Source: Pseudoalteromonas sp. GCY | GTDB taxonomy: Bacteria > Pseudomonadota > Gammaproteobacteria > Enterobacterales > Alteromonadaceae | Assembly (NCBI RefSeq): GCF_016695175.1 | Contig: NZ_CP068023.1 | Span: 546,501 to 610,500 of the forward strand | Reading direction: 5' to 3' | Length of the DNA stretch: 64,000 nt | Shown: piece after piece, positions 5,758-20,151 of the stretch | How positions within the stretch are numbered: position 1 is the first letter of the stretch | Layout: each line of letters begins with the position of its first letter | Position numbers and translations under genes: made by a program | The notes under the pieces: generated by a model | Database searches by the model: none | What the model saw: only the letters and a program-made list of their open reading frames with translations | Told to the model about the DNA's origin: nothing

Positions 5758-8247
5758 ATGCCAAAACAGGATCCCTATCTCGATAGAGAACAGCAAAAAT
5801 ACGACAATCCAGTACCTAGTCGCGAGTTTATCTTAGAACATATTAAAAGCGCGGCCAAACCACCTTCTTTCTCTCAATTGTGTAACGATTTAAAAGTGCA
5901 AGACGAAGAACGTCAAATTGCGCTTAAACGCCGCTTGCGCGCAATGGAGCGAGATGGTCAACTGCACTTCAATAAATTTAAGTGTTACACCATTCCAAGT
6001 GATGATGGTCTAGTCAAAGGTCGCGTTGTTGGACACCGTGACGGCTTTGGCTTTTTAGAAGTCGAAGGCGAACCCAAAGATTGGTTTATCACTAAGTACC
6101 AAATGGAGCGCGTGCTGCATGGCGATTGGGTGTTAGCGAAGGCTGGCAGTCGAGGCTCAGGTGGTAAGGTGGAAGCGCGCATTGTGCGGGTACTTGAAAA
6201 AGAGCGTGCGCCAGTCGTCGGTCGTTATTTTGTTGAGTTTGGCATGGCAGTCGTGGTGCCAGAAGATCCCCGCATTACTCAAGATATCATCATCGTACCT
6301 GGCCAAGAAAATGGTGCTCGCCATAATCAAATGGTGCAGGTAGAGATCACTCAAAGCCCTAGCAAACAAATGAATGCAATGGGTAAAGTACTTGAGGTGC
6401 TCGGCGATCATATGGCACCGGGTATGGAAATTGAGGTGGCACTTCGCAATCATGACATTCCTCATGAGTGGCCAAGTGAAGTAGAAGCACAAGTTGCAAA
6501 TCTTGGTGAGTTTGTTGAAGAGTCTGCCAAACAGGACCGAGTTGACCTGCGCGATTTACCGTTAGTGACCATTGATGGGGAAGATGCCCGTGACTTTGAT
6601 GACGCCGTATATTGCGAGCGTAAAAAGTCAGGAGGTTGGCGTTTATGGGTTGCTATTGCGGATGTGTCTCATTATGTAGGTAAAGGCACTGCGCTTGACA
6701 AAGAAGCGATTGAACGTGGTAACTCAGTGTATTTTCCTGAGCAAGTTGTGCCAATGCTACCTAAGGTTTTATCGAACGGTTTATGTTCATTGAATCCAAA
6801 GGTAGACCGCTTGTGTATGGTTGCGGAAATGACCGTGTCCGAAGCGGGTCGTTTGTCTGGCTACCGTTTTTACGAAGCCGTGATGAACTCTCACGCTCGT
6901 CTTACTTACACCAAAGTCCATGCGATCTTACAAGGTGACGAAAAGCTCAGAGCGGATTATCAGCCTCTTGTGCCTCATCTAACAGAGCTCCATAACATGT
7001 ATATGGCGCTGAAGGCTGCAAGGCAAGAGCGTGGTGCAATTGAGTTTGAAACCCTAGAAACGCGCTTTGTATTTAATGCCCATCGAAAAATTGACTCTAT
7101 CGTGCCTGTGGTTCGTAACGACGCCCACAAGCTGATTGAAGAGTGCATGATCTTGGCGAACGTGTCAGCAGCAAAGCTGTTGGAAAAACACGAAGCCCAT
7201 AGCTTGTACCGTGTTCATGATGAGCCAGACCCTGAAAGATTGAGCCAATTTAGACAATTCTTACAAGACTTGGGTATTGAAAGCCAATTACCTAACGATC
7301 CGTCGCCAGAGGAGTTGACTCAAGCGCTTGAGTCATTGGGAGATCGCCCTGAAAAAGAATTGATCCAAACCATGTTACTGCGCTCAATGAAGCAAGCAGT
7401 ATATCAGCCAGAAAATATTGGCCACTTTGGTTTGGCATTAAAAGCCTATGCACACTTTACCTCACCTATTCGCCGTTATCCGGATCTGGTGGTACACCGC
7501 GCAATCAAAGGCATTTTACAGCAGCAACAACAGCCAGTGAGTGGCGCTTACATCTACAATGAAGATGAAGTGAAACAACTGGGTGAGCAGTGCTCGATGA
7601 CAGAGCGTCGCGCTGATGACGCCACTCGTGAAGTTGCTGATTGGCTTAAATGTGAATTTATGCAAGATCATGTTGGCGATGAATTTACCGGTGTGATCTC
7701 ATCGGTCACCAACTTTGGATTATTTGTGAGGTTGGACGACCTACAGATTGACGGGATGATCCATGTTAGCAATTTAGGGCATGAGTACTTCCACTTTGAT
7801 GGTGCAAAGCAATGTTTGATTGGCGAGCATAGTCGTACGGTGTTTAGACTCGGCGATAAACTTACCGTTGTGGTTGCTTCAGTTAGCTTGGACGATCGTC
7901 GTATCAACTTAGCTTTAGCTGAAGAAGGTCAGCAAGACAGGTATGCAAGGCGTCGAAAATCGCCAAAAAGCACAGCAAGTAGTGTTCGTGAGCAGCTAAA
8001 AACGGGTAAAATTCCGGGACCTAAGCGCCGTGACGGTGAAACGTCTGGTCGCGACAAAGATAAAAAAGGCGATGACAAAGCCAAAAAGCGCAAAAGAACG
8101 ACCCCTAAAGGTGAGCTCAAACAGGCGAAAAAGGCAGGCACGCTGAAGTCGAAGAAGAAATCGACGAGTAAAAAAGCCAAAGCGGCAAAGGGCAAAGCAA
8201 AGCGCCCAGGTAAAAACGAAAGAAATAGTAGCAAAAAAGCGCAATAG
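5758..8247 (+). CDS. rnr: Ribonuclease R
   Basis: 3'-5' hydrolytic exoribonuclease of 829 residues, the usual length. Order: winged-helix region (~20-85), two cold-shock domains (~85-225), RNB catalytic domain (~265-590) with the Asp cluster DGEDARDFDDAVYC, S1 domain (~645-730, GDEFTGVISSVTNFGLFVRL), and a Lys-rich tail from ~735 to the end. RNase R degrades structured RNA, takes part in rRNA and tmRNA quality control and is often cold-induced; the basic tail helps with duplex unwinding. rlmB follows 22 nt downstream, a conserved enterobacterial and alteromonad pairing that suggests one transcript. Confidence 0.98.
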   Translation: MPKQDPYLDREQQKYDNPVPSREFILEHIKSAAKPPSFSQLCNDLKVQDEERQIALKRRLRAMERDGQLHFNKFKCYTIPSDDGLVKGRVVGHRDGFGFLEVEGEPKDWFITKYQMERVLHGDWVLAKAGSRGSGGKVEARIVRVLEKERAPVVGRYFVEFGMAVVVPEDPRITQDIIIVPGQENGARHNQMVQVEITQSPSKQMNAMGKVLEVLGDHMAPGMEIEVALRNHDIPHEWPSEVEAQVANLGEFVEESAKQDRVDLRDLPLVTIDGEDARDFDDAVYCERKKSGGWRLWVAIADVSHYVGKGTALDKEAIERGNSVYFPEQVVPMLPKVLSNGLCSLNPKVDRLCMVAEMTVSEAGRLSGYRFYEAVMNSHARLTYTKVHAILQGDEKLRADYQPLVPHLTELHNMYMALKAARQERGAIEFETLETRFVFNAHRKIDSIVPVVRNDAHKLIEECMILANVSAAKLLEKHEAHSLYRVHDEPDPERLSQFRQFLQDLGIESQLPNDPSPEELTQALESLGDRPEKELIQTMLLRSMKQAVYQPENIGHFGLALKAYAHFTSPIRRYPDLVVHRAIKGILQQQQQPVSGAYIYNEDEVKQLGEQCSMTERRADDATREVADWLKCEFMQDHVGDEFTGVISSVTNFGLFVRLDDLQIDGMIHVSNLGHEYFHFDGAKQCLIGEHSRTVFRLGDKLTVVVASVSLDDRRINLALAEEGQQDRYARRRKSPKSTASSVREQLKTGKIPGPKRRDGETSGRDKDKKGDDKAKKRKRTTPKGELKQAKKAGTLKSKKKSTSKKAKAAKGKAKRPGKNERNSSKKAQ

Positions 8248-14093: not shown

Positions 14094-15200
14094 ATGAACA
14101 ACGATTATTTACTCCTGACGCCAGGCCCACTCAGTACCTCTCACACCGTGAAAGAAGCCATGTTGAAAGACTGGTGCACTTGGGATGATGAATATAACCA
14201 AGGTGTGGTGCAAGTTATTCGCAAGCAACTTTGTGAAATTGCGGTTGCAGATCCGCAGTATCGCAGTGACTACAGCGCAACCTTAATGCAAGGCAGTGGT
14301 ACAGCAAGTGTAGAGGCGGCTATTGGGACTTTTATTCCTAAGTCTGGCACTTTACTGGTTATCAATAATGGTGCCTATGGTGCGCGTATCATTGAGATAG
14401 CCAATTATCTAAATATTAATGTGATAGCGCTCAATTTTGTTGAAACCGAACTGCCGCAACTTGAGCAGATCTCACAAGCGCTTGAGCAACACTCTGAGAT
14501 CACCCACGTAGCAATGGTACACTGCGAAACCACAACGGGGATGCTGAATCCGGCTAAACGCGTAGCGGAGCTTGTGAAACATCACAACAAAGTAATGATC
14601 CTTGATGCCATGAGCAGTTTTGGCGGCATTGAGATGGATATGCACGAGTGGCAAATTGATATCCTCATTAGCTCAGCCAATAAGTGTATTCAAGGTGTTC
14701 CAGGTTTTGGCTTTGTGATCGCAAAAACGGCGCTGCTGGTTGCCTCTGAAGGACAAGCACGTTCACTTTCTTTGGATCTTCACGCCCAGTGGAAAACCAT
14801 GGAAAATCATCATGGTAAATGGCGTTTTACCTCGCCAACGCATGTTGTCAGGGCTTTTGCCAAAGCACTGGAAGAATTGGCGCAAGAGGGAGGCGCTTCT
14901 GCGCGATTTAAGCGTTACAGCCAAAATCAAAAACAGCTCGTTAGCGGCATGAAAGCCCTTGGTTTTGAAGCCTTGTTACCAGAAGCCATGCATTCACCTA
15001 TTATCACTTCTTTTTATTCACCAAGTGACGAAAGCTATGAGTTTAAGCGCTTTTATGAAGTATTGAAGCAAAAAGGATATGTAATATACCCCGGTAAAGT
15101 ATCAAACGCAGATTGCTTTAGGATCGGTAATATTGGCGAAGTGTATGCCGCAGACATTAGCGGACTACTCGAAGCTATCGCACAAGCAAAATACTGGTAA
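14094..15200 (+). CDS. phnW: 2-aminoethylphosphonate--pyruvate transaminase
   Basis: A fold-type I PLP enzyme of 368 residues with the family N-terminus [18 protein letters not shown] and the PLP lysine Lys197 in [16 protein letters not shown]. It converts AEP and pyruvate to phosphonoacetaldehyde and alanine, the first step before PhnX cleaves the C-P bond. GAGG precedes the ATG. The gene faces the rest of the pathway across a 4-kb island. Its last codons (AKYW-stop) are copied in the REP array that follows. Upstream lie a Pho box and a GntR-type operator, so it is probably controlled by both phosphate limitation and substrate. Confidence 0.95.
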
Positions 15201-15417
15201 ACCGTTAGGGTAGGAGACGCTTTACGCGGCGATTGCTATTGCTGAAGCAAAGTATTGGTAAACCGTTAGGGTGGGAGGCGCTTTACGCGGCGATTGCTAT
15301 TACTAAAGCAAAATACTGGTAAGCCGTTAGGGTGGGAGGCACTTTACGTGGCGATTGCTATTACTAAAGCAAAATACTGGTAAGCCGTTAGGGTAGGAGA
15401 CGCTTTACGCGGCGATG
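15185..15417. repeat. REP array B, 61-bp period, includes the phnW 3' end
   Basis: Four copies of TRGGAGRCRCTTTACGYGGCG start at 15211, 15272, 15333 and 15394, exactly 61 bp apart. Each unit also contains AAGCAAARTAYTGGTAA, and in copy one this is the end of phnW including its stop. All copies have one orientation, unlike arrays A and C. The GTAGG/GTGGG head and TTTA loop again fit REP elements. Confidence 0.9.
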
Positions 15418-15421
15418 GGTT

Positions 15422-15439
15422 AAGGGGGTTACACCCCTT
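15422..15439. terminator. Hairpin after array B, possible terminator
   Basis: AAGGGG pairs with CCCCTT around GTTACA, then T, A, G. The U-run is very short. It could end phnW transcripts that cross the REP array. The same bases form the left copy of the direct repeat that bounds the island. Confidence 0.35.
15424..15439. repeat. Left copy of island-flanking direct repeat
   Basis: GGGGGTTACACCCCTT matches 19454-19469 at 15 of 16 positions in the same orientation, 4,030 bp apart. The intervening DNA carries a tyrosine recombinase gene, so the pair may be attachment-site remnants. No excision evidence is available. Confidence 0.4.
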
Positions 15440-15554
15440 TAGCTAAATAAATGAGTAGCGAATCTTCAATTGTGTTAACGATGACCTAATCTGAGCTATC
15501 ACCTTCCCATAAAATAAGGCATGCATAATTGGAGTCTTCAGCACTCATTAAAGC

Positions 15555-15655
15555 AGGAGGTTAACTAAGAAAAATCACGTTTTACCAAATCACAAGTTAT
15601 CGCAGTGCTAACAGAAGCTGGAAAGTCTCAGGTGTATGTAATAAACACAGCGTAA
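15555..15655 (+). pseudogene. Relic of IS3-family orfA transposase
   Basis: A strong AGGAGG (15555-15560) is followed by a frame reading KSRFTKSQVIAVLTEAGKSQ and stopping at 15655. This resembles the conserved N-terminus of IS3-family OrfA (KKSRFTESQIIAILKEAEAG). The expected ATG is AAG and one A appears to be missing from the lysine run, so translation cannot start properly. After about 20 residues similarity is lost. I saw no inverted repeats that I trust. It is best read as a decayed insertion-sequence fragment at the island edge. Confidence 0.55.
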
Positions 15656-15695
15656 GCAATGGTACGTATTCCAATATTGGCTTTCACCGGTTTTT

Positions 15696-16421
15696 TTATA
15701 TGGCTGCTGATACTAGTTTGTCCAAACAATGCAAAATATTAATTACAATGTCGTTCTGCCGCTTAAACTCTTTCTCAATTAGAGGTATTGCGCTAGTTTC
15801 TGCAAATTTTTCATTTGAACCAGGTTGTGTTTCAATTTCTTCAAAGATGAACTGATAACGTTCTATGCCTTTTTCTTTAAGGTTGAAATGGGAAAGTGGC
15901 CTTACAATACTTGAATGCTTTGTTTGGTTGCTCAGCCTGCCGAGGTGTTTATAATCGGTGTTGTCGGTGAGTCGATTTAAAAGAAGTAATAGTTCCATGT
16001 ATTTGGTGTGTGTTTCAAGTTTTATTTTTACATGGTACAAGGTGATCTTAGAATTAGGTAGCTTTGTACTCTTGTTTAGGTTAAGGCCTAGCCCCAGATA
16101 AATTACAAAACTCACTATGTCTGACAACGAATGTAAAGTTCTTACGATAGCGATAATGTTGGCTCTACATCCTAATGTAAATTCAAAATTTTTGTTATTC
16201 GCCTCGGCATCTCCACTGAACCTTGATCTAAATAAACAACTTTCTGTAGGGTTATTGCGCATGTGCTCGTCAAGTAAAGCTTGCAATGTACGGTAGTGGT
16301 AGTTGCATAGCATTTGAGTTTCAACTACAGAGCTAATAGCCCTCTTCAATTTTGATATATCTTTCTCTGATTGATTATTTTGAGCGTAGTGAAGTAAAGT
16401 TTCTCGATTCCAGGTTTCCAT
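15696..16421 (-). CDS. Unknown helical protein, possibly HEPN-like
   Basis: I do not recognise a named family. The frame extends to 16436, but the second ATG at 16421 (METWNRETLLHYAQ, 241 residues) has GGGA nine bases upstream and avoids the 10-nt overlap with the preceding gene. The protein looks mostly alpha-helical and soluble. LGRLSNQTKHSSIV contains an NxxKH pattern reminiscent of some HEPN-fold proteins, which would be an RNase-type effector or a degenerate partner; this is a guess. It is the last gene of the integrase-led operon and looks AT-rich like its neighbours. Confidence 0.6.
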   Translation of the reverse strand: METWNRETLLHYAQNNQSEKDISKLKRAISSVVETQMLCNYHYRTLQALLDEHMRNNPTESCLFRSRFSGDAEANNKNFEFTLGCRANIIAIVRTLHSLSDIVSFVIYLGLGLNLNKSTKLPNSKITLYHVKIKLETHTKYMELLLLLNRLTDNTDYKHLGRLSNQTKHSSIVRPLSHFNLKEKGIERYQFIFEEIETQPGSNEKFAETSAIPLIEKEFKRQNDIVINILHCLDKLVSAAI

Positions 16422-16426
16422 TTTAG

Positions 16427-16912
16427 TTATTCCCACACCACTAATTTTGTATCATAACTAAGCGTAAGCGGGTGCTTCGGATCTTGACTGGCTGTTTTTC
16501 CAAAACAATAAACTGGTTTATCTGATTGAATTAACATCGCCATAAAATTATCTAAATTCTCCCTTAGCTCCTTTGGTAGCTTTGTTCTACTACCCCAACA
16601 AGGAACAAGAATGTCAGCTTCAGAAATTACATCAGAAATATGAGCAAAGTTTTCACTTCCAATCGGGTCTATCACTGTTGCTAGCTCTTTTACATTCGTA
16701 GCCCTGTAACCAAATACATTGCCAACGATGAAGCGTTTACCACCATTTCTTTCAGTAAACCCACGCCACTTTCTAACAGTCTGGTCATCTATAGCTTCGT
16801 CAGCGGTACTAGGATTTATTCCGAAATATGCAATCACTTTATGGCCTTGAGGCTCTACGTCTCGCTCTAGCCTATACCTATACTTTCTACATGGGCTTAA
16901 AATTGCCGACAT
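16427..16912 (-). CDS. DUF1643 family protein
   Basis: 161 residues fitting DUF1643: start LSPCRKYRYRLER, then AYFGINPSTADEAIDDQTVRKW, IVGNVFGYRATN and a C-terminal VYCFGKTASQDPKHPLTLS. The family is small, cytoplasmic and of unknown function, and is common in phages and genomic islands. The two N-terminal thirds have the conserved NPSTAD and RATxxxxL patterns. It follows the membrane coiled-coil gene by 48 nt and directly precedes the helical gene on the same strand. The location supports a mobile-element origin. Confidence 0.75.
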   Translation of the reverse strand: MSAILSPCRKYRYRLERDVEPQGHKVIAYFGINPSTADEAIDDQTVRKWRGFTERNGGKRFIVGNVFGYRATNVKELATVIDPIGSENFAHISDVISEADILVPCWGSRTKLPKELRENLDNFMAMLIQSDKPVYCFGKTASQDPKHPLTLSYDTKLVVWE

Positions 16913-16960
16913 AACAACTCCCGCATTCCAATTAGTGTTGATGACCGCATATCCGTGAAT

Positions 16961-17971
16961 CTAGTCTTCTAAATTAGCGGATATGCTCTTTACTTGATAA
17001 GGCCAGAACAGGCCTCCAAAAATATCGTAAGTACAGCCAAGTATTTCATTACGTTGTGCTAGTGAAAGTAATCCTAATTGATTCAAGAAGTCATACATAA
17101 ATACAAGGTCAGTTACGTACTTAAATTGAGTTTTTTGATCTGTGATAGATTTTTCTTTTATCAATTTTGCAAACCCAAAGTTTGCTAACGTATTGTAAAT
17201 GTCAACTAATACTCGAACTTCATATTTGAAATCCGCCATTGCATCTGGCAACAGCGGATAATTCTTAATGTACAACTTCAATTGATTCAAATAGCATTGA
17301 AAAGACCCACACGACATACCTTCCCAGCTATTAGCTTCTATTGGCCAAACAGGATCATGCGCGAGAACTCCATTGACTGGAGAGTTATTTACAAAGAAAG
17401 TTTTGTATAGCTGACGACTGTCTATTCCTAAATTATGCGGTTCGCCATGCAATCTTTCTAATCTATCTGCAATATGCTCCAATTCTGTTTCAAAAATTTT
17501 TACATGTTCGTAGTAAAGTTTTAGATTTTCTCTTGCTTGGTTTGTTTTGTTCTGCACGGTTGCTAAATTAAATTGCTTATTGGCCAACTTAAATTGATCG
17601 TTCGACAACTCAAATTGCAATTCAGTCATTATGGTTTGTTTGCTGGCTCTCAATTGCTGCAGATCTAATTGTTTAGCTCTGTGATTAAAACCTAGCATCC
17701 CTGTTAGAGCAGCAAAGATACCAAAAGAGCCAATCGTTACAGAAAAAGTATCTTTAACTGCAGCCCATAGTACGGGGTCACTATGATCAATTATTATGGA
17801 ATCACTAGTCGCGCACATTTGCCATATAAGCAGCATAACTGGAATGCCTACAGTGCAAGAGAAACTAATATCGTACTTTCGTTTTGCTTTAGCTACTTCT
17901 TGTTCTTTACTTGAAATTGAGATTGAAACTGCGTTAAGTTCATTCCTTAGATTGTTTTTTAGATCTATCAC
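16961..17971 (-). CDS. Membrane protein with two helices and long coiled coil
   Basis: 336 residues, family not recognised. A short N-terminal helix is followed by two membrane helices (around ISFSCTVGIPVMLLIWQM and TFSVTIGSFGIFAALTGML). A coiled coil of ~80 residues follows (~97-175) with a degenerate internal repeat (FELSNDQFKLANKQFNLAT), then a helical C-terminal domain of ~150 residues. This layout recalls putative abortive-infection membrane proteins of the AbiC-like kind, but I cannot confirm membership. Start is GTG with AGGA six bases upstream, located inside the 3' end of the integrase message only 2 nt after its stop, so the two are translationally linked. Confidence 0.65.
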   Translation of the reverse strand: MIDLKNNLRNELNAVSISISSKEQEVAKAKRKYDISFSCTVGIPVMLLIWQMCATSDSIIIDHSDPVLWAAVKDTFSVTIGSFGIFAALTGMLGFNHRAKQLDLQQLRASKQTIMTELQFELSNDQFKLANKQFNLATVQNKTNQARENLKLYYEHVKIFETELEHIADRLERLHGEPHNLGIDSRQLYKTFFVNNSPVNGVLAHDPVWPIEANSWEGMSCGSFQCYLNQLKLYIKNYPLLPDAMADFKYEVRVLVDIYNTLANFGFAKLIKEKSITDQKTQFKYVTDLVFMYDFLNQLGLLSLAQRNEILGCTYDIFGGLFWPYQVKSISANLED

Positions 17972-17973
17972 TA

Positions 17974-18771
17974 TTATTCCTTTTGCAACCAGTCAATTGA
18001 CATCCCTAAAGGTGGAACAGACTTGTATAAGTTATTCAGTGCGTCTGTTAATTTTTGCGGATCAGGTATTATGTATGTGTCGGTCATATCATCGCTTACA
18101 TGGCCTATAGCCATTTGTATAACGTCATACGGCACGCCTGCGTCAGACAGTAAGCTGGCTGTGCTTTTTCTCCCTGAGTGGCTTGAGCCTTGCTTGAAGC
18201 CGCAGCTCTTAAACAGGTTTCTAACGTAATTCTCCATACTGCTACAGACTAGCGTTTCTTTTTGCCCGTCTTTGGTTTGATACCTTTTTACGTTAAACGA
18301 CAGAGTTACCCAGCGCTTCCCGCTTCTAGCTAAAAATAAAGGGCTGTCGCCATTTAAACCACCATAACTACCATCACTTGATAACATGGCTTTATCCGCT
18401 ATGCGCTTGTCACGCCACGACCAAATTGCCTTACGTTGCTGTTTTAATACTAAAGCGCAATCACGACTTTGACCTGTTTTGGTGTACTTAGCTTTCATTC
18501 TGAAAATTGATTTAAGCTCCCCTGAATGAGTAAATACATCTTTAACTTTAAGATGGCAAGTCTCACCAATGCGCGTTAGCGAGCCGAACAAAAACCAAAT
18601 TAATGCAACGTTTCTCTCAGCTGTCTCACCTCGATTCGCATTAGCCAAGATGTGTTTTAGCTGCGCTTTACTCTCTATTTTACCCGCACCTTTTTTGCTT
18701 GCTTCTAATCGCTTCACAGCATCAGAAACTGGCCTTTTTCGCATTGGCTTATGACCTTTTGTAAATGGCAT
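17974..18771 (-). CDS. Tyrosine recombinase/integrase
   Basis: The catalytic domain is complete: Arg in SLTRIGETCHL, HxxR as HSGRKSTASLLSDAG, then IGHVSDDMTDTY with the second His and the Tyr nucleophile. The open frame begins at a TTG at 18792; I chose the ATG at 18771 (MPFTKGHKP, 265 residues). The N-terminal arm-binding and core-binding region is short compared with phage integrases of 350-400 residues, so the protein may be a minimal integrase or lack its arm domain. It heads the four-gene island operon. Such enzymes integrate and excise elements at att sites. Confidence 0.88.
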   Translation of the reverse strand: MPFTKGHKPMRKRPVSDAVKRLEASKKGAGKIESKAQLKHILANANRGETAERNVALIWFLFGSLTRIGETCHLKVKDVFTHSGELKSIFRMKAKYTKTGQSRDCALVLKQQRKAIWSWRDKRIADKAMLSSDGSYGGLNGDSPLFLARSGKRWVTLSFNVKRYQTKDGQKETLVCSSMENYVRNLFKSCGFKQGSSHSGRKSTASLLSDAGVPYDVIQMAIGHVSDDMTDTYIIPDPQKLTDALNNLYKSVPPLGMSIDWLQKE

Positions 18772-18873
18772 ATAACACCCGAACAGCACCAAATTCCAAT
18801 ATAGATGATATTTTAGTCTATAAAATTCACATGCGCCGTGTTTTGGGGTGATATTGGAAATGTCATTTGGAGT

Positions 18874-18896
18874 GCAAAGGCTTAATCAGCCTTTGC
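18874..18896. terminator. Strong hairpin without T-run
   Basis: GCAAAGGCT and AGCCTTTGC form a perfect 9-bp stem with loop TAATC. It sits 18 nt beyond the end of the small ORF and upstream of the integrase. It could end the Fur-controlled transcript or serve as a recombinase-related site. The lack of a U-run argues against simple intrinsic termination. Confidence 0.4.
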
Positions 18897-18913
18897 AATT
18901 TGATAGACTAAAT

Positions 18914-19040
18914 TTAATTGAAGAATGCCTCTAGCAGCTCTCGGATCAACCAAGAAGCTATTCCTTGCTTGAAACCTTTTTGAAAGTCATTTTTCGTTGT
19001 TTTGTTATCACTAGTTTTTTTGTTGCTAATTTTGGACATC
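18914..19040 (-). pseudogene. Tiny ORF interrupted at an A8 run
   Basis: AGGAG seven bases before an ATG at 19040 starts MSKISNKKN and then a stop. If the A8 run (19015-19022 on the plus strand as T8) were read as A7, translation would continue in another frame as TSDNKTTKNDFQKGFKQGIA, then SWLIRELLEAFFN and a stop at 18914, about 41 residues in all. The tail looks like an amphipathic helix. This may be a homopolymer error, a decayed gene or a product made by slippage. I do not know its function. Confidence 0.4.
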
Positions 19041-19287
19041 TTACGACTCCTATATTTATTTTTATATGATCCTAGAGCCAGCATCTACTTCAATACTTAA
19101 GCTGTGTACTAACACTAACAAAACCCATGTTGGACATAATGTTGAATTAGAATGAATATGGAATTGCACGCAGCAGAAAACCGCAATTCTTTAGTAAGAC
19201 AGCAGTAAAAATATAAACATGAGATTGGTTTTTCTAGGAGTGAATGAAACGACTTATTTATTTTAGTTTTTGTCGATTCATAATTTT

Positions 19288-19315
19288 ATTATAACATAAT
19301 GAGAATCATTTGCAA
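19288..19315 (-). promoter_or_regulatory. Sigma-70 promoter overlapped by a Fur box
   Basis: On the minus strand TTGCAA (19315-19310) and TATAAT (19293-19288) are separated by 16 bp. The spacer and -35 region coincide with 19295-19313, CATAATGAGAATCATTTGC, which matches 15 of 19 positions of the Fur consensus GATAATGATAATCATTATC. Transcription would start near 19281 and run towards the small ORF and the integrase operon. Iron-dependent repression is inferred. Confidence 0.6.
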
Positions 19316-19425
19316 TAATGCTTAATTTCTTGCATACAAGAGTATTCCACCACTAACTCGCATTTAGACGTAGAATATAGAATTAATGAAGGTGTTTTTG
19401 ACGCGGCAGTAGCTCTGGAAAGGTT

Positions 19426-19447
19426 GTCGTGCTAAAGCACGACCTAC
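19426..19447 (-). repeat. Solitary REP element with perfect stem
   Basis: On the minus strand GTAGG leads into GTCGTGC-TTTA-GCACGAC, a perfect 7-bp stem with a TTTA loop. The head and loop match the REP-type repeats in arrays A-C, but the stem sequence differs. It lies just past the 3' end of the GntR gene and may serve as its terminator. Confidence 0.7.
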
Positions 19448-19453
19448 GGGGAC

Positions 19454-19469
19454 GGGGGTTACACGCCTT
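19454..19469. repeat. Right copy of island-flanking direct repeat
   Basis: GGGGGTTACACGCCTT overlaps the last codons and stop of the GntR gene and matches 15424-15439 at 15 of 16 positions. If these are att sites, the element used the 3' end of the GntR gene as its target. Confidence 0.4.
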
Positions 19470-20151
19470 CAACAATCATTTCTATGGCGTCATGGAGCCA
19501 ATATTCAATATTGTAATCCACCAGTGCTTGCTCGGCGTCATAGCGGGCGCGCAGTACCTTTAAACAAGGCGCGCCGCTGTTCTTTTCTAATTTGTCGGCA
19601 ACGTCATCGGGTAGTACGGTGACGCTTATTACACACTGTTCAAAGCTGACGTCAACTTGGTAGTGGGTCGACATCACATCTGTGATTGAACCATCCAGCG
19701 GTTGGTTGTGCAAGTCGGCAAAACGTTCGGCTGCACAATAGATCTGTTCCATCATTATTGCGCGACTATCTAACGCGCGTACTCGGGTTAGTTCATACAC
19801 CGGCTGGCCGTCAAAATGAGAGTGGCTAAACTCAGGCTCTGTGGAAGGGGCATTAATTGCCACTACTTGAGTTGTTGGTGTAAAGCCTTGTTCAATGGCA
19901 AGGTGGTTAAAGTTCACTTTTTTAGCTGGATGCCATTTGAGTTTTTCGGGGGTGACAAACCAGCCACGACGCTTTTGGCTAAAGATAAGTCCTTCGGCTT
20001 CTAGTCGTGCTAGGGCTTCACGGACAGTGATCCGTGTTGAGCTAAATGTTTCTTGCAGCGCACGCTCTGAAGGCAATTTGGCACCGGGCGTCATGCTGCC
20101 AGCGGCTAGCAGCGCTTGGATATGGTTTCGAATACGTTGATAAAGCAGCAT
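19459..20151 (-). CDS. phnR: GntR/HutC-family regulator of phosphonate utilisation
   Basis: 230 residues: a winged-helix GntR domain (~1-70, GAKLPSERALQETFSSTRIT and REALARLEAEGLIFSQKRRGWF) and a UTRA ligand-binding domain (~88-225). HutC-subfamily members bind GTNTANAC palindromes, and three such sites occur before phnW, the TonB receptor and the MFS-phnX operon. The ligand is probably AEP or a pathway intermediate; this is inferred from context. No Shine-Dalgarno is visible before the ATG, and the predicted PhoB-dependent start is very close, so the message may be almost leaderless. It follows the HD gene by 80 nt. The symbol is assigned by context. Confidence 0.85.
   Translation of the reverse strand: MLLYQRIRNHIQALLAAGSMTPGAKLPSERALQETFSSTRITVREALARLEAEGLIFSQKRRGWFVTPEKLKWHPAKKVNFNHLAIEQGFTPTTQVVAINAPSTEPEFSHSHFDGQPVYELTRVRALDSRAIMMEQIYCAAERFADLHNQPLDGSITDVMSTHYQVDVSFEQCVISVTVLPDDVADKLEKNSGAPCLKVLRARYDAEQALVDYNIEYWLHDAIEMIVEGV

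Follow-up and report, generated by a model that had tools for sequence, protein, structure and literature searches.

A recombinase-led island of Pseudoalteromonas as a probable gene-cassette array on an integron-like platform

Introduction

What is the small island that lies between phnW and its regulator in Pseudoalteromonas sp. GCY, in which a recombinase gene and three further genes share one strand, and do these genes form one system? The island lies within a stretch of 64,000 nucleotides (NZ_CP068023.1, positions 546,501 to 610,500; hereafter the window, to which all coordinates refer unless a locus is named) of a 5.47-Mb genome in two contigs. The original prediction took it for an operon in which an integrase is expressed together with a mobile defence or toxin cassette. 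Our conclusion is that the island is very probably a short mobile gene-cassette array, carried on an integron-like platform whose tyrosine recombinase is not IntI. All of the evidence is comparative, and the comparison covers part of the known genomes and of the plasmid matches.

Results

An insertion with an empty counterpart

The element, its ends and its genes are as follows.

15666 to 19349, minus strand: whole inserted element, made up of leader, paired site, recombinase and three cargo genes, with 8-bp repeats at its ends
15666 to 15673, no strand assigned: left terminal 8-bp repeat GTATTCCA, placed from the sequence and the empty-site junction
19342 to 19349, no strand assigned: right terminal 8-bp repeat GTATTCCA, placed in the same way
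17974 to 18792 from a TTG, or 17974 to 18771 from the likelier ATG at 18771 (265 aa), minus strand: tyrosine recombinase, first gene of the array and putative platform integrase (PF00589, 7.1e-18)
16961 to 17971 (GTG start), minus strand: cargo 1, a 336-aa protein with two hydrophobic stretches and then a coiled coil, as read by eye
16427 to 16912, minus strand: cargo 2, a DUF1643 protein of 161 aa (Pfam PF07799, 1.1e-31)
15696 to 16436, minus strand: cargo 3, a helical protein of 246 aa from the first start and 241 aa from an inner ATG

All four minus-strand open reading frames (ORFs) of the original prediction were confirmed between phnW and the regulator, as were the convergent orientation of these two flanking genes and the gap of 2 nt between the recombinase stop and the next GTG. 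An integrase-led insertion was likewise borne out by genome G083 (locus L065), where the site is empty: in the alignment, flank homology stops at 15673 and restarts at 19342 with 8 bp of overlap, which makes the element about 3,676 bp long plus the repeat. The target, in reading direction, is TGGAATAC. Ends had earlier been placed at 15424 and 19454, in a 16-bp repeat; the empty-site alignment moves them to 15666 and 19349. We rejected the 16-bp repeat as an attachment duplication because both of its copies, with one mismatch each, are present in the empty-site genome (L065 7621 and 7956).

A short directional site at cassette ends

Many cassettes end, in reading direction, in a short coding-strand motif with the consensus TTGGAAT(A). 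The copies behind the genes of the window are listed here.

15668 to 15674, minus strand: terminal site TTGGAAT, which follows cargo 3 and overlaps with the left end repeat
16429 to 16435, minus strand: site TGGGAAT at the junction of the DUF1643 and helical-protein genes, where homology to genome G165 breaks
16925 to 16931, minus strand: site TTGGAAT at the junction of cargo 1 and the DUF1643 gene, where homology to G165 also breaks
17976 to 17982, minus strand: degenerate site AAGGAAT at the junction of recombinase and cargo 1, a weak match with two mismatches

We scored the motif in 40-nt windows at 74 stop codons of ten arrays, using mechanical ORF calls (at least 38 aa in arrays, at least 110 aa outside them) from which nothing was removed, spurious ORFs and the internal junctions of toxin-antitoxin pairs included. 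On the sense strand, TTGGAAT is exact in 15 of the 74 windows and present with at most one mismatch in 36, compared with 4 at this tolerance on the antisense strand and with 0.4% (exact) and 8.2% (at most one mismatch) of genic windows. Stop windows outside the arrays hold it exactly in 0 of 77 cases and within one mismatch in 8 (Fisher's test against the arrays, 1e-5 and 2.5e-7), and start windows outside the arrays in 0 and 2 of 41 cases, respectively. The last codons and stop of the DUF1643 gene themselves lie in the site, as TGG GAA TAA in the window and TGG GAA TGA in G165.

Two of the window's sites, folded as single-stranded DNA, gave z scores of 0.72 and 0.33, neither beyond chance, and an Rfam search at E<=0.1 returned nothing. 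Judged on these two folded sites, the cassette ends do not have the hairpin of folded attC sites.

Homology breaks at the sites, and cassettes are duplicated and reordered

We took as breakpoints the endpoints of homologies of at least 100 bp between 17 arrays and sites, which gave 109 distinct clusters inside arrays. Fifty-one of these lie within 12 nt of a site, where 400 random placements gave a mean of 9.0 and a maximum of 17; for homologies of at least 90% identity the excess is 34 of 54, against a random mean of 4.8 and maximum of 11. Between the window and G165, homology breaks at 15667, at 16433, at 16932 and at the paired site in the leader described below. A 197-aa gene with sites on both sides separates the DUF1643 and helical-protein genes in G165, and a 78-aa cassette that is 95% alike in G165 and S16_S37 (G034) has different neighbours in the two.

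Contig C33 of G083 holds two copies of a 300-bp cassette (100% identity) and two of a 190-bp cassette (98%), plus a third copy that the contig end cuts; sites lie at the borders of these cassettes, and their neighbours differ. On a Microbulbifer plasmid three duplicated cassettes stand in a new order, and 9 of 9 endpoints fall at sites. These are single-gene cassettes in one orientation with the site at the 3′ end, as in integrons, and from the comparison we infer that they are mobile.

Other inserts at the same chromosomal place

The place between phnW and the regulator was compared among relatives whose regulator is 97-99% identical. G047 has there a recombinase 97% identical to that of the window, within flanks that are 96% identical, and different cargo (208- and 106-aa proteins). 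Several inserts have no recombinase: two genes in G154, one gene (162 aa) in G071, and in G076 a toxin-antitoxin-like pair of 73-aa and 144-aa genes that is 82% alike in DNA to a pair behind the Catenovulum recombinase. G055 has a broken recombinase of another subfamily plus other genes, and G161 a recombinase remnant plus other genes. The 7 kb past the regulator in G157 (L061 1759-7979) hold unrelated ligase/carrier-protein biosynthesis-like genes, named by eye, and do not reach phnW; going by this genome, elements of more than one kind may have a hotspot in the phnW-regulator gap.

A paired site upstream of the recombinase

18792 to 18802, minus strand: right half of the putative platform site, which in reading direction is ATATTGGAATT and precedes the recombinase ATG by 20 nt, with the site at 18793-18799
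18851 to 18861, minus strand: left, inverted half of the putative platform site, which in reading direction is ATTTCCAATAT; 48 nt separate it from the right half
18862 to 19341, minus strand: leader, which G165 shares at 80% likeness as far as the paired site
19288 to 19315, minus strand: promoter-like site TTGCAA-16-TATAAT in the leader, with 10 of 12 matches, from a scan that as a whole was near chance (14 found, 11.2 expected)
18914 to 19039, minus strand: leader ORF of 41 codons that starts at an ATG within a longer open frame and has a counterpart of equal length in G165 (L029)

The site occurs upstream of the recombinase in two copies that face each other, one inverted and one direct. 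The spacer between the two halves is a constant 48 nt in the main set, which comprises 7 of 14 loci (the window, G047, Catenovulum, an IMG/VR contig, a P. donghaensis plasmid, G142 and S16_S37 of G034), and four of these spacers (Catenovulum, IMG/VR, P. donghaensis and G142) are unlike the window's in sequence. Elsewhere the spacer measures 11 nt (L027), 62 nt (L029), 55 nt (L064, with a decayed right half) or 41 nt (L030, where a recombinase-less cassette sits behind the pair), and L060, L062 and L102 have no real pair. Two of five paired sites upstream of recombinases fold better than shuffles (L026, z -2.2; L014, z -3.0). From its position upstream of the recombinase at a fixed spacing, we take the inverted pair to be the platform site. 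A -10-like TATACT or TATGCT, seen by eye, often precedes the right half and would fit autoregulation.

Exact platform patterns are strict, and the window's own pair is missed by them. The TTCCAATAT-type pattern occurs in 1 of 108 genus genomes (G047) and the pattern of the sister lineages described below in 1 of 394 order genomes (G331), each time just upstream of a recombinase. IMG/VR gave 15 matches to the TTCCAATAT-type pattern and 0 to the sister pattern; none of the 15 lies by a convincing recombinase relative (one has E=0.48, and a few are near a stretch end), and we took them as chance.

Two further observations concern the leader. The C-terminal half of the 41-codon ORF is rich in hydrophobic residues, and its product is possibly a small membrane-active peptide. 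Within 19288-19320 the promoter-like site overlaps the sequence AAATGATTCTCATTATG, which is conserved in G165 and resembles the consensus of a Fur box.

A recombinase apart from the integron integrases

Residues R67, H198, R201, H224 and Y233, to which we presume the family's catalytic roles belong, are invariant across seven aligned recombinase sequences. The protein's sequence places it in the tyrosine recombinase superfamily (R...HxxR...H/W...Y, PF00589). Its XerC/XerD-like NCBIfam matches fall below their cut-offs and, because these models match mainly from about position 100 on, the core-binding region is missing. Matches to solved structures are distant and of Xer-type, IntI4 and integrase only.

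The integron-integrase model TIGR02249 gives the recombinase 12.7 bits (E 0.059) against a cut-off of 265, and its best-scoring relative, L028, 36.5 bits. By comparison, the window genome's own IntI, encoded elsewhere (G000:C1:310730-311674), scores 464 bits. IntI genes above the cut-off lie elsewhere in 8 of 9 tested genomes, the window genome included, and both platform kinds may therefore live in one cell. A tree of 28 proteins sets 17 relatives of the recombinase, not all of which were shown to head arrays, apart from 7 IntI and 4 Xer proteins at 100/100. The island would work like an integron yet falls outside the integrons, both by the integrase model and by the folding of two of its cassette ends.

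The recombinase search matched 10 of 147 genomes, our own included, five of the ten weakly. Further relatives occur in Catenovulum (86%), on the P. donghaensis plasmid (92%), on one IMG/VR contig (74%) and, in two pieces, on the Microbulbifer plasmid (45%). A profile search of 394 order genomes gave some match in 305, mostly weak or partial, which we did not count as members. Among plasmids, 369 records match, 368 of them below 60% identity; nine stretches from all of the plasmid matches were examined for arrays. The G142 recombinase has no match in IMG/VR, and a phage collection gave none at E<=1e-5.

A second, 224-aa recombinase-like family (L029 3568-4242, reverse complement, that is G165; L064), which has no Pfam or NCBIfam match, heads arrays with the same TTGGAAT site and is perhaps decayed, perhaps a divergent partner. 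On the Vibrio vulnificus plasmid pC4602-2 (L104) a distant recombinase relative, with no obvious cassette array, lies just after genes like those of a cyclic-oligonucleotide-based antiphage signalling system (CBASS), annotated as SAVED, ThiF and nucleotidyltransferase.

Sister lineages with sites of their own

More distant recombinases show the same design with a different site. A GTTTCCTAT..ATAGGAAAC pair was found in 4 of 10 distinct loci, those of G003, G331, an Alteromonas macleodii plasmid and a Vibrio chagasii plasmid, and was absent from L036/L072, L073, L075, L076, L103 and L123. Its TTCC-to-GGAA distance is 63 in the first three and 64 in V. chagasii, compared with 62 in the main set; G065 has a sister-type pair with one mismatch, again at 63. 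The sister-type relatives in genomes are 26-32% alike to the query recombinases, and both plasmids were found through the G130 relative (40-44%). With at most one mismatch, TAGGAAAC occurs in 15 of 40 stop windows of three arrays, in 1 of 40 on the antisense strand and in 0.6% within genes; genes of the Alteromonas array themselves contain the plain hexamer GGAAAC five times. CGGAA lies at 6 of 14 junctions of a Shewanella plasmid (0 antisense, 5.5% in genes). GGAAA, in 4 of 7 stop windows of a Stutzerimonas plasmid (genes 0%) and 2 of 7 of a Pseudomonas antarctica plasmid (genes 5.2%), is suggestive only.

On the A. macleodii plasmid, pKD01 (L122 7956-16681), 23 same-strand and mostly small genes follow the recombinase, the last cut by the end of the stretch; nearly all of them, and the recombinase itself, are annotated as hypothetical. 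In G065 (L034, reverse complement 6178-7989), the gene directly before the sister-lineage paired site and recombinase encodes a distant relative of the 336-aa membrane protein.

Objections and alternative explanations

A number of observations weigh against a cassette array. About half of the 74 stop windows have no site at one mismatch or fewer; these include spurious ORFs, junctions within toxin-antitoxin pairs and sites beyond the 40-nt window, and in some the site may have decayed or never been present. L028 has the pair, yet the site at only 1 of its 8 stops. The junction of recombinase and cargo 1 has a two-mismatch site only, and sequences equally close occur inside genes. The site itself is short and one-sided, with information in about nine positions and no second arm, which is unusual for a tyrosine recombinase. 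Fifty-eight of the 109 breakpoints are not near a site, among them every breakpoint inside the inserts of G049 (3), G154 (2), G161 (5) and G076 (5), and some of the misses arise where the recombinase gene diverges gradually. On the regulator side, homology to several relatives ends at a repeat close to the regulator end and not at the element end. The pair is missing, decayed or otherwise spaced in 7 of the 14 loci. As for the recombinase, its gene is broken in several arrays, the G165 protein has no Pfam or NCBIfam match, the tree program warns of long branches meeting between the groups, and the AlphaFold model was unusable and not used (predicted local distance difference test, pLDDT, 38).

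With these points in mind we considered four other explanations. The first is an invertible promoter switch of the fim type, in which the recombinase would flip the segment between the inverted half-sites and so turn the operon on and off. An inverted pair does flank a segment ahead of the operon, and the recombinase has no core-binding region and matches tyrosine-type DNA invertases weakly (0.0008; 4.9e-06 for L028). However, no flipped pair was seen by eye among the intact pairs inspected, and a switch leaves both the sites after genes and the cassette swaps unexplained. We regard it as unlikely.

The second is an ordinary small island with a phage-like integrase and a single attachment site, whose cargo was changed by homologous recombination. 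Such an island would agree with one insertion at a fixed place that is marked by an 8-bp repeat, with a recombinase of the phage-integrase superfamily and with the more than half of breakpoints that lie away from sites. It does not account for the sites behind genes, for inserts that lack a recombinase, for the duplication and reordering of units within a single array, or for arrays of many single small genes, and we consider it quite improbable.

The third explanation is that of the original prediction, a four-gene anti-phage or toxin operon travelling with its own integrase. The cargo does comprise a membrane protein and proteins of unknown function, and distant relatives of the recombinase (32%) and the membrane protein (26%) adjoin in G065, there with the membrane gene in front. 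Relatives of the recombinase carry Gp49 (RelE-like) with a helix-turn-helix (HTH) gene, a Fic gene, a PIN gene with a 75-aa gene (no Pfam match, AbrB-like by eye), a PemK/MazF pair with a MazE-like partner just under the Pfam cut-off, and strings of small unknown genes. The hint of toxins therefore holds for the platform, though not for these four genes, which were not found together elsewhere in what was searched. The membrane protein has matches in 6 of 108 genus genomes, one of them its own and the rest at 25-31% identity; the counts for DUF1643 and the helical protein are 2 of 108 and 4 of 108. The last two recur together in G165 only, with one gene between them, and there the DUF1643 copy, 94% identical and with another neighbour, has an internal stop; further relatives of the helical protein are 95% (G165), 66% (G049, where it stands alone) and 27% (G034) identical. 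PADLOC assigned no defence family to three of the four window proteins or to ten cargo proteins of relatives, and gave DUF1643 one match at E=0.055 (ThsB, TIR-like). Nor was the suggested HEPN-like protein confirmed: the predicted structure of the helical protein (AlphaFold, mean pLDDT 72.5, mostly helical) has no PDB fold match at E<=0.001, and an R-x6-H motif, found by eye in three of four relatives, is absent from the fourth. Since the cargo turns over, with breakpoints between genes and other neighbours for each gene, a single defence or toxin operon is not borne out, and we think it very unlikely. Most probably the cargo samples the pool of mobile genes and does not form a functional unit, the four genes having been brought together by cassette exchange; a defence role for single cassettes is possible.

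The last, that the GGAA motif merely binds ribosomes and the arrays are ordinary fast-turnover operons, is highly improbable: the site does contain GGA and often lies just before a start codon, but its rarity at stops and starts outside arrays (no exact copy in 77 and 41 windows) speaks against a plain ribosome-binding motif, as do its presence at chromosomal insertion ends and many breakpoints and the fact that recombinase lineages have their own versions of it, in several cases inverted upstream of the recombinase.

Flanking genes and composition

14094 to 15200, plus strand: phnW (TIGR02326, 573.7 bits)
19459 to 20151, minus strand: GntR/UTRA regulator, after which the phosphonate genes come

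The guanine-plus-cytosine content is 34-44% inside the island and mostly 43-52% outside it, with the exception of two 500-bp windows near 12.5-13.2 kb at 40-41%. A 61-bp tandem repeat of about four copies lies at 15174-15416, starting with the last codons of phnW, and its copy number apparently varies among relatives (L026, L062 and L066).

Discussion

The mechanism that we propose for such arrays is as follows. A tyrosine recombinase of 250-270 aa without a core-binding domain would recognise a short, directional site built around a GGAA core; in this lineage the site is TTGGAAT. One such site would close each cassette, which holds either a single gene or a toxin-antitoxin pair. By joining two GGAA-type sites the recombinase would release the stretch between them as a circle, which could re-enter at another site or at a chance match in the chromosome, with reordering of cassettes as the outcome. 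The recombinase gene would itself be the first, co-directional cassette, flanked by two sites of which the downstream one is weak in the window, and a promoter between or before the inverted half-sites, about 62 bp apart, would serve the array. Occasionally the whole array would insert at a chance site-like chromosomal sequence, here TGGAATAC. That this recombinase carries out these steps, and does so by the family's catalysis, is what the sequences would suggest. On this model the integrase is co-expressed with the cargo because its gene behaves as the first cassette; the co-directional arrangement with its 2-nt gap noted in the original prediction stands, while its view of the cargo as one operon or system does not.

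More broadly, and on balance, we favour the view that these arrays form a second class of gammaproteobacterial cassette platform, which would have evolved apart from integrons. It would be defined by a clade of recombinases lacking the core-binding region and by lineage-specific GGAA-type sites (TTGGAAT, TAGGAAAC, CGGAA and others), and would hold toxin-antitoxin and unknown genes on plasmids and in chromosomal hotspots; with the recombinase gene itself as first cassette, the platform could move and insert itself. A literature search, which covered few subscription journals and had bioRxiv preprints outside its range, found no description of this system.

Several known systems invite comparison. 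Integrons share with the arrays a tyrosine recombinase platform, single-gene or toxin-antitoxin cassettes in one orientation with a 3′ site, duplication and reordering, and the occurrence of cassettes without an integrase. Here, in contrast, the recombinase is not IntI and lacks the core-binding region, its gene stands at the head of the array in the direction of the cargo, short GGAA motifs serve as sites (the two that were folded forming no hairpin), and the putative platform site consists of two inverted halves that lie about 62 bp apart. The pdif modules of Acinetobacter plasmids are also small modules flanked by short sites, there Xer sites, whereas here a dedicated recombinase heads the array and the GGAA motif is one-sided. 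Some pdif modules carry toxin-antitoxin genes, and we know of none with a dedicated recombinase. FimB/FimE-type invertases are short tyrosine recombinases. They likewise act on inverted sites, but the intact pairs inspected by eye show no sign of inversion, and our arrays have many direct sites with moving cargo. The integron-like rulB elements of Pseudomonas are likewise recombinase-led with a variable cargo side; they have three recombinases (the first of 385 aa, the second of 525 aa), and the authors found no attI (Rhodes 2014, PMC4542609).

When bacterial platforms for capturing genes as cassettes are discussed, the integron is the standard example. If our reading is true, many arrays of small unknown genes, for example on marine plasmids, are cassette stores that tools based on IntI and attC would probably miss, and their cargo opens new ground in the search for toxin-antitoxin genes and possible defence genes. 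The sites being short and simple, the recombination chemistry is easily testable, and would show whether folded single-strand sites are needed for capture. With related arrays in other marine bacteria and on plasmids, the island may represent a second, separate way in which bacteria collect genes.

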